Source: Desulfobaculum xiamenense (GTDB lineage Bacteria > Desulfobacterota > Desulfovibrionia > Desulfovibrionales > Desulfovibrionaceae). Taken from it: a stretch of DNA of 64,000 nt. This document shows, piece by piece, positions 37,401 through 40,257 of this stretch. The position numbers and the translations under genes are program-made. The DNA is taken from contig NZ_JAATJA010000001.1 of NCBI RefSeq assembly GCF_011927665.1, positions 539,019 through 603,018 on the forward strand, in the 5' to 3' direction. The notes beneath the pieces are model-generated. The model made no database searches and was not told the origin of the DNA. It was given only the letters and a program-made list of their open reading frames with translations. Numbering within the stretch: the stretch's first letter is position 1; each line of letters opens with the position of its first letter.

Positions 37401-38997
37401 GGATGACCCGCGTGGAAAAGTGGTCAGCCTCGCGCTCGCGGTCGATGGCCGGATTGGTGACCACCGCCACGTTTTCCTTGAAGAATTCGGAGATGCCCGG
37501 CAACGCCTGCTCATTGAGGCAAGCCAGCGGTCCCATGTGCCCCATGGACCCGATGACGGCGCGCCCGGTCGTGGCGACCTTGTGACGCATATCCACGTCG
37601 TACTTCTGCCAGCCAAGGGCCGCCAGAGCGTTCTGCCGCACCAATTCGTCCTCGGAAAGGCCGGATGCGGCGGACTGGCCAAGGAAATCCGCAAGCGCCG
37701 GGACCGCGTCCTTCTGGGGCGGGATTTCCTGATACAGCGAATGGATGGAACCGAGCGCCTTCTTGCGGGACTTCATAAGCGTGACAAGACGACGCTGGAA
37801 GGTGGAGCAGTCAAGGACGACGCCCCTTCGGCCCTGCCCGGAAATGATGGCGATCTTTTCGCCGGGGGCCAGCGGCTTGGGGTCCGTGGCGTTGAATTCG
37901 ATGTCCACCACGCCCTTTTCCGAGGACAGGAAGAAATCGTAATCCGATTCGCCGAACCACAGCGGGCGCAGGCCCAGCGCATCGACGCTGCCCATCACCA
38001 CATGACCATGGCGGGCGATGACGGCGGCCGGTCCCTGTGCCGACGGGGGGAAGAACCAGCGGTAGAAGGAATAGACGTCCTGCAAATCCTTGTGATAGCG
38101 GGCGACCTCGGAATGGACCGCCGGAAAGACCATGGCGAAGGCTTCCATGGGATCAAACCCGTAGAGGTTGATCAGACCTTCGAGAATGCGGTTGAGATCC
38201 TGCGAATCGCTGCCGCCGGGGACAGGCTCGATGCCGAGTGTGCGGCCGGTGCTGCGCAGGCGCTCGATGGTGTTGATCTCGCCGTTGTGCCCAAGCAGGG
38301 AGAACGGTTGCGAACGCTCCACCGTGGGCAGGGTGTTGGTGGAATAGCGGCTGTGGCCAAGGGTCATCACGGAGCGGGTGTCGGGGTTCTGCAATTCGGG
38401 GTACACCCGCGCCAGCAGATCCGGAACGCCGCGCACCTTGTACACGACGCTGTCGCCGGACAGGGAGGCGATGTGCATGTCCGGGAATACGACCTCCAGC
38501 TCCATCTGGATGCCGAAAAGCAGTTCCGGCCCCCGTGCGAGGTCGGCCTCGGAGATCATACCCGCCACCTGCCAGAACAGCGGAGCCTCGGCATGGGCCA
38601 TGGGGCCAAGCTCCTCGTCGCGCGTGGCACCCACCACCTCGTGCAGCAGCTCAATGCCCTTGGCCGCAAAGGTGGCCCGAATGCCGGACATGATGGTGTC
38701 CGCGTCGCTCCTGATGGCGTGGGGCAGCAGGAAATGCCCAACGAAAAATCCACGGCTTTCGGCAAGATGGCGCGACAGGCCAGCCTTCTCAAGGCGAGCG
38801 GCCCACACTTCGCGCGGGATGTCCGTCATTATGCCGCAGCCGTCGCCCTCGTCGTTGATGTCACCTGAACGGTGCGCCATTTTCTTGAGGGCTTCGATGG
38901 TCTTGACGATATTTGCGTGTGAGGAATGGCCGCGCTTATCAACGAAGGCGATAATTGCGCAGGCATCATTTTCCTTGGCTATTGGTGCGCGATTCAT
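34426..38997 (-). CDS. gltB: Glutamate synthase large subunit
   Basis: GltB makes two glutamates from glutamine and 2-oxoglutarate. The 1523-residue protein has the full domain order: class II glutamine amidotransferase (about 13-390, nucleophile Cys13 after a 12-residue propeptide), central domain, FMN-binding synthase barrel (about 790-1170), and the GXGXG helix at the C-terminus (AYGAIGGTLMIQNYADSRAC). Iron-sulfur ligands are Cys1119, Cys1125 and Cys1130, with an extra Cys at 1122. ATG 38997 is chosen with GAGGA about 10 nt upstream; 39018 is less likely. No small subunit gltD is adjacent. Confidence 0.96.
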   Translation of the reverse strand: MNRAPIAKENDACAIIAFVDKRGHSSHANIVKTIEALKKMAHRSGDINDEGDGCGIMTDIPREVWAARLEKAGLSRHLAESRGFFVGHFLLPHAIRSDADTIMSGIRATFAAKGIELLHEVVGATRDEELGPMAHAEAPLFWQVAGMISEADLARGPELLFGIQMELEVVFPDMHIASLSGDSVVYKVRGVPDLLARVYPELQNPDTRSVMTLGHSRYSTNTLPTVERSQPFSLLGHNGEINTIERLRSTGRTLGIEPVPGGSDSQDLNRILEGLINLYGFDPMEAFAMVFPAVHSEVARYHKDLQDVYSFYRWFFPPSAQGPAAVIARHGHVVMGSVDALGLRPLWFGESDYDFFLSSEKGVVDIEFNATDPKPLAPGEKIAIISGQGRRGVVLDCSTFQRRLVTLMKSRKKALGSIHSLYQEIPPQKDAVPALADFLGQSAASGLSEDELVRQNALAALGWQKYDVDMRHKVATTGRAVIGSMGHMGPLACLNEQALPGISEFFKENVAVVTNPAIDREREADHFSTRVILGDRPDAWGEKSPSAVGLILKSPILLGGCLGNAVPHANMAEIAASFGTQTLEEVLSFFTAQRRDTARVRVLDATFAPADESLAARMAILCDEACEAVRNGAVLLLVDDSATFTDSRVFIDPGLAVASLGAALNAAGLRRECSIIVRSAAIRNLHDLMFLMGLGADALNPYLIWRMAREHATESRPAEEVIRVTMDVLQKGMEKVMSTMGIHEICGYGRIFASIGLADDLAAAFGCPNFCASQEQGLSFARLQRMAIRRLERFAENEDAQLWRDPQRNAKVGRVLRAAAEGRTGYREMARSLEEIEAEAPVALRHLLSFRKVEKGASLAMSDVDITCGNHSMPLVIPAMSFGSQGENSFRTYAETARELNIVCMNGEGGEIPDMLGRYRHNRGQQIASGRFGVHMDFLNSADFLEIKVGQGAKPGEGGHLPGQKVTEMVAGARHCKPGIALISPSNHHDIYSIEDLAQIIAELKTANPEARISVKIPVTSGVGTIAVGVAKAGADIVNISGFDGGTGAAREHAKKYVGLPAEIGVSLAHRALIESGLRDGVELWCDGGMRSGADVLKMIMLGANRVGLGTVSLMGLGCISCQRCHLDLCPRGISTQLRTKEQAAERGVKGFHPVQVAEETGNLVRLLGYIGEEMRSILARLGVRRLADVVGRTDLLEQIRMREDISLRELLDAQLADTPAPIAASVRTTRKPLDYLTRLISDMAMTSFRKNETRNVRYTDEGVRSVDRAVGTFLAGAMSREFGPASDRKAFLRLDASVPGNGLCAFNVPGIECIVGGGAQDGTAKGCFGGTLGVFKGANWQGKRIDGSTGKSFAYGAIGGTLMIQNYADSRACVRMSGADAIFGARITEPVNDDLGNLATRAHLKGFAFEYMTGGRAVVLGDPGPWMCAGMTGGVIYQCLYPEYGFTRASLNRRLATGADVEIHPVDEEGLADVKCLLTRYVEELRRSFQNDEAEAVLGLLREAGDRFVAIAPAHKHPPKAE

Positions 38998-39136
38998 GCG
39001 TGCGTGTCCTCTTTGCATGTGTCCATGAGCACGGGCTGGTCTTCGCGTCGATTCGCGACCGGATTGGTGCCGACCGCCACGTCCCCTTGCGAAGACCGAT
39101 AGCGCCCCTTCCCTTATATCTCACATTGGGCTGACC

Positions 39137-39165
39137 AGAATACGGCTTTCACCCAACACCGTCAA
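39137..39165 (-). promoter_or_regulatory. Sigma-70 promoter of gltB
   Basis: On the minus strand TTGACG (39165-39160) and TATTCT (39142-39137) are spaced by 17 nt. The expected start near 39130 gives a leader of about 130 nt before the ATG. Confidence 0.7.
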
Positions 39166-39185
39166 ACTAAAAACACTCTTTTTGC

Positions 39186-39216
39186 CAATTATGAAACTAT
39201 TCGATTTTCATAATTG
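39186..39216. promoter_or_regulatory. Perfect 11-bp inverted repeat upstream of gltB promoter
   Basis: The arms caattatgaaa (39186-39196) and tttcataattg (39206-39216) are exact inverted copies around a 9-nt spacer, centred about 39 bp upstream of the gltB -35 box. Being AT-rich and lacking a T-run at the right side, it looks like an operator or activator site rather than a terminator. Confidence 0.55.
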
Positions 39217-39280
39217 TAACAAGACAAGTATTTCAACATATTGTGTTTTCAAGCCCAAAGCGATGGCTCGACGCAAAAAA

Positions 39281-39324
39281 ACGCGGGAATGGCGGCCATT
39301 TCGAGCCTGTTGCCATTCCCGCGT
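39281..39324 (-). terminator. Terminator of the secreted nuclease gene
   Basis: The 13-bp perfect arms acgcgggaatggc (39281-39293) and gccattcccgcgt (39312-39324) lead on the minus strand into a T-run (A-run 39275-39280 on plus). Confidence 0.88.
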
Positions 39325-39370
39325 CTGTTCGGATTTCCCTCACTTCGCGAAAGCCATGCAGCTTTGTCCC

Positions 39371-40066
39371 TCACTGGGCAAAGGGCGAATACTTCCGCGC
39401 CGGACTGTAGCCCTGTTCGAGCGCCTCGCGCAGGTTGTCGAACTCGACCTGATTTTTGCGGCGGATATCCTTGGCCGCCGAGGAGCCTTTCGGAAAGGCG
39501 CGGCGCGAGTGGGCGTTGCCTATCCATTTGCGCTTTGCGTGACGCGTGTCGAGTACCTTTGGCCAGAAGCCTCGTTCCCCGGCAATGGCAGCGCTCTGGA
39601 GCGCCGTGTAGCGCTTGACCATGGAATCCGGCTGTCCGGAAAACCAGTAGTGAAAGGCCAGTCCGACGCGCAGCAGTTCCTCGTTGCACACCCGGCCGTC
39701 CCGAAGCCGGACGGTGCCGAGCAGGCGACCGTGCCTGTCCTTGTGTGGTTGCACGGTGTTGATGGTGACGCTGTCCCTACCGATGAGCGAACGGAGCATG
39801 GCGCGGGCATCGGCCGCACCCGTCTGGTCTGGATCGCCGTCCTTTCCGGTTTCCGGCGTATCGATGCCCACCAGACGCACCCAGCGTCCGTCGGCGAGGC
39901 GGATGGTATCGCCGTCTGGAATCCAACGGACGCGAGCCGTGAACGTGGCGGCTCCCGCCATATCAACGCACAGGACGAGCGCCAGTAACAGGCACAGGGC
40001 ACAATGGCGCGCAATGGCATGGAACGAATCGGTAATGATGGATTTGTGGGAGAGGAACGTATTCAT
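39371..40066 (-). CDS. Secreted thermonuclease-like (SNase) protein
   Basis: The 231-residue protein has a signal peptide (hydrophobic 22-39, ending near AGAA) and a staphylococcal-nuclease domain: WIPDGDTIRLADG (about 48-60) with the metal-binding Asp, RLVGIDTPE with the catalytic Arg and Glu region, and KDRHGRLLGTVRL with the second Arg. A basic C-terminal tail of about 40 residues follows. It should act on nucleic acid outside the inner membrane. ATG 40066 lacks a good ribosome binding site, so the start is not firm. It lies between rpoD and gltB, all on the minus strand, with its own terminator. Confidence 0.85.
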   Translation of the reverse strand: MNTFLSHKSIITDSFHAIARHCALCLLLALVLCVDMAGAATFTARVRWIPDGDTIRLADGRWVRLVGIDTPETGKDGDPDQTGAADARAMLRSLIGRDSVTINTVQPHKDRHGRLLGTVRLRDGRVCNEELLRVGLAFHYWFSGQPDSMVKRYTALQSAAIAGERGFWPKVLDTRHAKRKWIGNAHSRRAFPKGSSAAKDIRRKNQVEFDNLREALEQGYSPARKYSPFAQ

Positions 40067-40219: not shown

Positions 40220-40257
40220 AAGACGGCCCGCATGGCTGATGCCATGCGGGCCGTCTT
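40220..40257 (-). terminator. Terminator of the rpsU-rpoD operon
   Basis: The 17-bp perfect arms aagacggcccgcatggc (40220-40236) and gccatgcgggccgtctt (40241-40257) around tgat are followed on the minus strand by ctttctg. Confidence 0.9.

Follow-up and report, generated by a model that had tools for sequence, protein, structure and literature searches.

In the window, by which we mean the whole stretch of 64,000 nucleotides of Desulfobaculum xiamenense DNA that was analysed, the minus strand carries in succession a staphylococcal-nuclease-like (SNase) gene, a G+C-rich hairpin with a T-run, an inverted repeat, an A/T-rich stretch, a promoter and gltB, the gene for the large subunit of glutamate synthase (Table 1). 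The genes upstream of gltB are those for the nuclease, rpoD, dnaG and mutS2, and this order recurs in G001, the one other genome of the genus that we compared (SNase by Pfam; the others read from their proteins), whose GltB is 78% identical over the 560 residues searched. Among NCBIfam models, GltB is best matched by NF008730 (glutamate synthase large subunit), with a score of 698 bits that does not reach the cut-off of 1047. The ATG at 38997 is better placed as the gltB start than 39018, since a preceding AGAGGA appears to mark it and since the homologous stretch in G001, and in G003 and G045 of a second genus, begins with ATG. The hairpin at 39276-39329 was not listed by our terminator scan, which considered loops of 3-8 only. 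Another hairpin, at 40220-40257, has 17-bp perfect arms and a 4-nt loop, lies 24 nt past the rpoD stop and looks like the rpoD terminator.

Table 1. Features of the gltB upstream region and its surroundings, in window coordinates
Feature	Position	Strand	Remarks
gltB, glutamate synthase large subunit, 1523 aa	34426..38997	-	Pfam GATase_2, Glu_syn_central, Glu_synthase, GXGXG
Sigma-70-type promoter, TTGACG-17-TATTCT	39137..39165	-	in 4 genomes, unchanged TTTGACG and conserved 17-nt spacing
A/T-rich, UP-element-like stretch (GCAAAAAGAGTGTTTTTAG) separating dyad and promoter	39167..39185	-	4 genomes share an unchanged AAAAA
Dyad proposed as operator; its conserved form is CAWTTWTG-N15-CAWAAWTG	39186..39216		half-sites 39186-39193 and 39209-39216
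G+C-rich hairpin and T-run that probably terminate the nuclease gene upstream	39276..39329	-	arms 89% complementary; function predicted
Staphylococcal-nuclease-like protein gene, upstream neighbour	39371..40066	-	same strand as gltB; SNase by Pfam

The gltB promoter, which runs from 39165 to 39137 on the minus strand, matches 9 of 12 consensus letters, and transcription is predicted to start near 39130. Since the promoter scan found one site against a mean of 0.6 in shuffles and is weak alone, the support for this promoter is its conservation in the four genomes described below. Upstream of it, the inverted repeat reads CAATTATGAAA-CTATTCGAT-TTTCATAATTG, two 11-bp arms of 100% complementarity around a 9-nt spacer; both the promoter and the perfect repeat are as an earlier note on this DNA had described them. 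The repeat lies upstream and clear of the promoter, with 20 nt separating it from the -35 hexamer; counted from the predicted start, its centre lies near -71 and its half-sites are centred near -60 and -83. The A/T-rich stretch in between may serve as an UP element. With up to 3 mismatches allowed, the repeat is unique in the window and also genome-wide (3,641,914 bases). Of 20000 shuffles of the AT-rich 100 bp around it, 29 contained a perfect 11-bp repeat with a spacer of 3-20; of 5000 shuffles of the 352-bp intergenic region, 7 did. Such a repeat is therefore locally unusual, yet some per genome would be expected by chance, and given the 29 local shuffles that contained one, the repeat on its own is suggestive only; its conservation is stronger evidence than these chance statistics. 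The literature searched held no description of the repeat by title or abstract start among the matches listed.

To follow the repeat in relatives, 99 family genomes, drawn from a larger group, were searched for GltB. Some match (E up to 0.001) was obtained in 59 of the 99, and a close GltB (64-100% identity) in seven: D. xiamenense itself (G000), G001, G003, G045, G044, G028 and G017. The long GltB type is patchy in the family, the remaining genomes having only proteins that are no more than about 35% identical, among them some long GltB-like frames. Four of the seven genomes with a close GltB, representing two of five genera, carry the dyad at a matching distance from the gltB promoter. In G001 it is exact, CAATTATG-N15-CATAATTG, and is followed after 19 nt by TTTGACG and, 17 nt further on, by TAGTCT. 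In the second genus it reads CAATTTTG-N15-CAAAAATG (G003) and CATTTTTG-N15-CAAAATTG (G045), each 18 nt from TTTGACG with TAATTA 17 nt on. Both keep 13 of 16 letters in the arms, and 7 of their 8 base pairs are intact. The spacing between dyad and TTTGACG is thus 18-19 nt in all four. Upstream comparison and a 31-nt profile (see below) showed the dyad to be absent from G044, G028 and G017, despite their close GltB type. Accordingly, a look upstream of gltB in relatives, as the earlier note had proposed, finds the dyad in the nearest ones and misses it in three of the seven genomes. The 11-bp arms that this note had taken as the unit are perfect in D. xiamenense, but in the relatives only the outermost 8 bp of the arms are kept, at a 15-bp gap, and the inner GAAA/TTTC is not conserved.

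The arms are better kept than the linker in all six genome pairs, with one-sided Fisher values of 0.0002-0.0502 for pairs that are not independent. Arm against linker identity was 16/16 vs 9/15 for D. xiamenense and G001 (0.0068), 13/16 vs 6/15 for D. xiamenense and G003 (0.0226), 13/16 vs 2/15 for D. xiamenense and G045 (0.0002), 13/16 vs 5/15 for G001 and G003 (0.009), 13/16 vs 7/15 for G001 and G045 (0.0502) and 14/16 vs 4/15 for G003 and G045 (0.0008). Shuffling the two second-genus regions gave at least 13/16 at offsets 17-20 from TTTGACG in 6 and 10 per 200000 cases. Positions 6 and 26 of the dyad change together, being A/T in our genus and T/A in both second-genus genomes; at positions 3 and 29 the second genus has mismatches (A-A and T-T), hence its 7 of 8 pairs. 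In the alignment of D. xiamenense with G001, identity averages 47% over the intergenic region and is 81% in the 31 nt of the repeat; the five windows of that length with the highest identity (84-87%) begin 14-26 nt promoter-ward of the dyad start. Since the best windows lie nearer the promoter, the conserved block extends beyond the dyad to include the UP-like stretch and the -35 box.

In G003 and G045, gltB stands among different neighbour genes. The gene divergent from gltB in these two genomes encodes a 170-183-residue protein without a Pfam or NCBIfam match and was found in them alone of the seven, being absent from G000 and G001. With neighbours that differ and a divergent gene that is missing from our genus, the dyad goes with gltB, the gene that all four share, as the proposal of an operator upstream of gltB would have it. 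This divergent gene (L117:8891-9439, plus-strand counterpart L118:10029-10538, the former on the minus strand) encodes two apparently membrane-spanning stretches. Conserved symmetry at a fixed spacing near the promoter of one gene, the pattern of a dyad-type operator, is found in four genomes of two genera. As no more than these four have it, part of the identity is explained by shared ancestry and incomplete divergence.

Further sites were sought with several forms of the motif. The exact 8-N15-8 form, with at most 1 mismatch, occurred in 5 of 348 genomes of the order, the matches outside the genus being in G066 (exact) and in G185 and G275 (1 mismatch each). The exact G066 match lies in an AT-rich stretch inside a reading frame that, by our own reading, resembles a solute-binding protein. 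An 87-nt profile scored the four sequences it was trained on at 71-76 bits and nothing else in the 348 genomes above 21 bits; at E up to 0.1 it matched in 99 of them, beyond the four only partially. This search used stricter filters and scored 12 candidates per genome (12 of 133 in D. xiamenense), which makes it a weak test for absence. A symmetrised 31-nt profile returned one site in each of the four dyad-bearing genomes, with all candidates scored in G000 (70 of 70), G003 (124 of 124), G044, G028 and G017, and 150 of 476 scored in G001 and 150 of 268 in G045. In D. xiamenense it otherwise yielded two overlapping half-matches (E=6.7 and 8.7) that we took as chance. With these profiles, and with candidates partly scored in some genomes, no second gene with the dyad was found, nitrogen-related or other. 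Similarly, the 31-nt profile had no match in 56 other gltB or gltB-like loci, some with little upstream DNA, in a search under default filters that was run without the four known sites as positive control. When consensus letters were counted in 49 upstream regions, the four sites from which the consensus was built scored 16/16 and the other 45 at most 13/16, a level that some shuffles also reached. The 49 regions comprised our own, six family loci and 42 of 80 gltB loci, the start codons of these 42 being unrefined; the 38 loci left out came from other phyla or had little or no upstream DNA.

A perfect repeat may also act as a transcription terminator or as an RNA hairpin (attenuator) instead of a DNA site, and the folds of the two strands, at -11.6 and -11.8 kcal/mol in D. 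xiamenense and -11.8 and -11.5 kcal/mol in G001, would suit this, each being better than 200 of 200 shuffles. In the second genus, however, the hairpin is not conserved, being absent in G003 (-3.5 kcal/mol, with 186 of 200 shuffles folding equally well) and replaced by a different fold in G045 (-10, equalled by 27 of 200), and this fits DNA recognition better than RNA or a terminator. Neither strand has a T-run after the repeat, which therefore lacks the combination of stable hairpin and T-run that makes an intrinsic terminator. The repeat is also upstream of the sole promoter-like site listed in 38950-39400, and the separate G+C-rich hairpin with its T-run lies nearer the nuclease gene. The single Rfam match, at E=3.1, scored 17.5 bits where the gathering score is 70 and was taken as chance. 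We thus rejected the repeat as a terminator or attenuator, as the earlier note had done for a terminator: with a hairpin that is not kept, no T-run and a position upstream of the promoter, RNA readings are very improbable, and a DNA-binding protein would explain the repeat most simply.

The repeat is, with good probability, an operator at which a putative gltB regulator would bind. A dimeric or tetrameric transcription factor may occupy the dyad with one DNA-reading head per 8-bp half-site, the half-sites near -60 and -83 being 23 bp, or about two helical turns, apart. It would then sit directly upstream of the UP-element-like stretch and the -35 box, from where it could exert class-I-type activation or tune the contact of the alpha-CTD, and glutamate synthase output would follow a metabolic signal. 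A centre near -71 is a usual place for an activator that touches the alpha subunit of RNA polymerase. Since the dyad lies upstream of the promoter hexamers without overlap, a class-I-type activator is the most likely form; judged on position alone, an activator is more likely, and we hold this with less confidence than the operator itself. Protein binding, activation and the sensed signal are all predictions of this model, which is weakened by the imperfect dyad of the second genus, by the three of seven genomes without a site and by the lack of an adjacent regulator gene or a second copy in the stretches and genomes searched.

The same conservation would also serve a repressor. Most repressor sites overlap the promoter, and against this the dyad stops 20 nt short of the -35 hexamer; a repressor bound there would have to block alpha-CTD or UP contact or loop the DNA, and would lower gltB expression when glutamate is plentiful. 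There is a precedent in E. coli gltBDF, where Crp centred at -65.5 represses and IHF occupies -75 to -113 (PMC1784095, in the part available), and an upstream position is therefore no proof of activation. We consider repression rather unlikely; it is a sub-case of the operator, with which its probability overlaps. It is less likely still that there is no dedicated regulator at all, and that an AT-rich UP element or nucleoid-protein site supports basal gltB transcription while the perfect dyad is partly accidental. The AAAAA between dyad and -35 box is invariant, the windows best kept in G001 (84-87%) lie promoter-ward of the dyad with its 81%, and 29 of 20000 local shuffles also held an 11-bp repeat by chance, all of which would agree with such a site. 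What it leaves unaccounted for is that the CA and TG ends are kept at a fixed 15-bp gap in four genomes when the linker is not, and that one difference between the genera is symmetric and two-sided.

As to which protein would read this candidate operator, we scanned for twelve operator consensuses, namely PhoB, Lrp, NtrC, Crp, ArgR, NikR, BirA, CIRCE, IHF, TnrA, NtcA and LysR-type, that of PhoB being taken from PMC3333781 and the others from general knowledge. None gave an unusual match across all four genomes. For Lrp (E. coli consensus, from which that of this lineage may differ) 11/15 was reached in each genome and in 216-276 of 300 shuffles. NtrC matched at 6 (D. xiamenense), 8 (G001), 7 (G003) and 8 (G045) of 12 letters, the two 8/12 matches lying at different places and being equalled in 22 of 300 (G001) and 39 of 300 (G045) shuffles. 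The Crp score was reached in 56 of 300 shuffles for D. xiamenense and 61 of 300 for G045, and the NikR score in D. xiamenense in 53 of 300. A BirA-like match of 11/18 appeared only in G003 and G045 (21 and 33 of 300 shuffles). The dyads of BirA, NikR and HrcA/CIRCE have two half-sites about 9-16 bp apart. They are long-spaced like the one described here, but their half-site letters have no unusual match in all four genomes.

Glutamate synthase promoters with upstream regulator sites are known from other bacteria. Bacillus subtilis gltAB is controlled by the LysR-type activator GltC, with a dyad upstream of the promoter. The D. xiamenense dyad likewise stands upstream of a glutamate synthase promoter at activator distance; unlike at gltAB, no LysR gene lies directly beside gltB and no divergent regulator gene adjoins it in the stretches read, and no T-N11-A dyad is common to the four genomes. 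In those stretches, no regulator gene of any kind was seen directly adjoining gltB. G001 does have a LysR-type gene (by Pfam) about 2 kb downstream of gltB; it adjoins a transporter-like gene, with which it probably belongs. E. coli gltBDF (Lrp, IHF, Crp, ArgR) likewise has upstream sites, but the consensuses of these four factors find no unusual match in all four genomes. In D. vulgaris, the DAP-chip targets of PhoB (DVU1083) include a glutamate synthase gene, and DVU3220, a proposed nitrogen regulator, binds the ammonium-transporter operon (PMC3333781, in the part available, where no binding motif of DVU3220 was seen). The PhoB box of that organism (same source) repeats the 6-bp unit (c/t)GT(n)AC across a 4-bp spacer and is not present here: its best matches in the four genomes have 7, 6, 7 and 5 of 10 letters, levels reached in at least 117 of 300 shuffles.

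Genes of the Lrp/AsnC type are present in all seven genomes and therefore do not discriminate between those with and without the dyad. The divergent gene of the second genus was rejected as the regulator, being without a Pfam or NCBIfam match and confined to G003 and G045 among the seven. As no second copy of the dyad was found in the profile searches, no autoregulatory copy was found either. A nitrogen or amino-acid signal, as had been suggested for the repeat, would follow solely from what gltB does. It is possible, though doubtful, that a dedicated regulator reading CAWTTWTG half-sites 23 bp apart acts on gltB alone in this lineage, and we would be equally tentative about such a regulator being a glutamate-synthase switch distinct from Lrp, GltC, NtrC, AmtR and PhoB. 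The dyad is an ordinary case in that it adds a new example to a familiar kind of element, with a putative partner regulator. It provides a defined 31-bp bait and a four-genome consensus toward the controller of ammonia assimilation via glutamate synthase in this lineage; beyond these it would be, if true, one more operator on a familiar list.

Some features were also observed in the gltB leaders, downstream of the promoter. The leader of the second genus (L086:1300-1480 and the matching part of L084, minus strand) is long and 87% identical over 149 bases between the two genomes. It contains stable hairpins, one of which (ATCCACC...GGTGGAT) is followed by TTTT in an attenuator-like manner, and a two-sided change occurs in only 1 of 53 predicted pairs. 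The L086 leader has no Rfam match, and a DNA search with the leader gave matches in 3 of 348 genomes of the order, namely these two and G123, whose 23-base match we took as chance. In D. xiamenense, the fold of the whole predicted gltB leader is no better than that of shuffles (135 of 200 as good), and at 39038-39097 this leader carries a perfect 9-bp repeat, GGTCTTCGC/GCGAAGACC, with its copies 42 nt apart.
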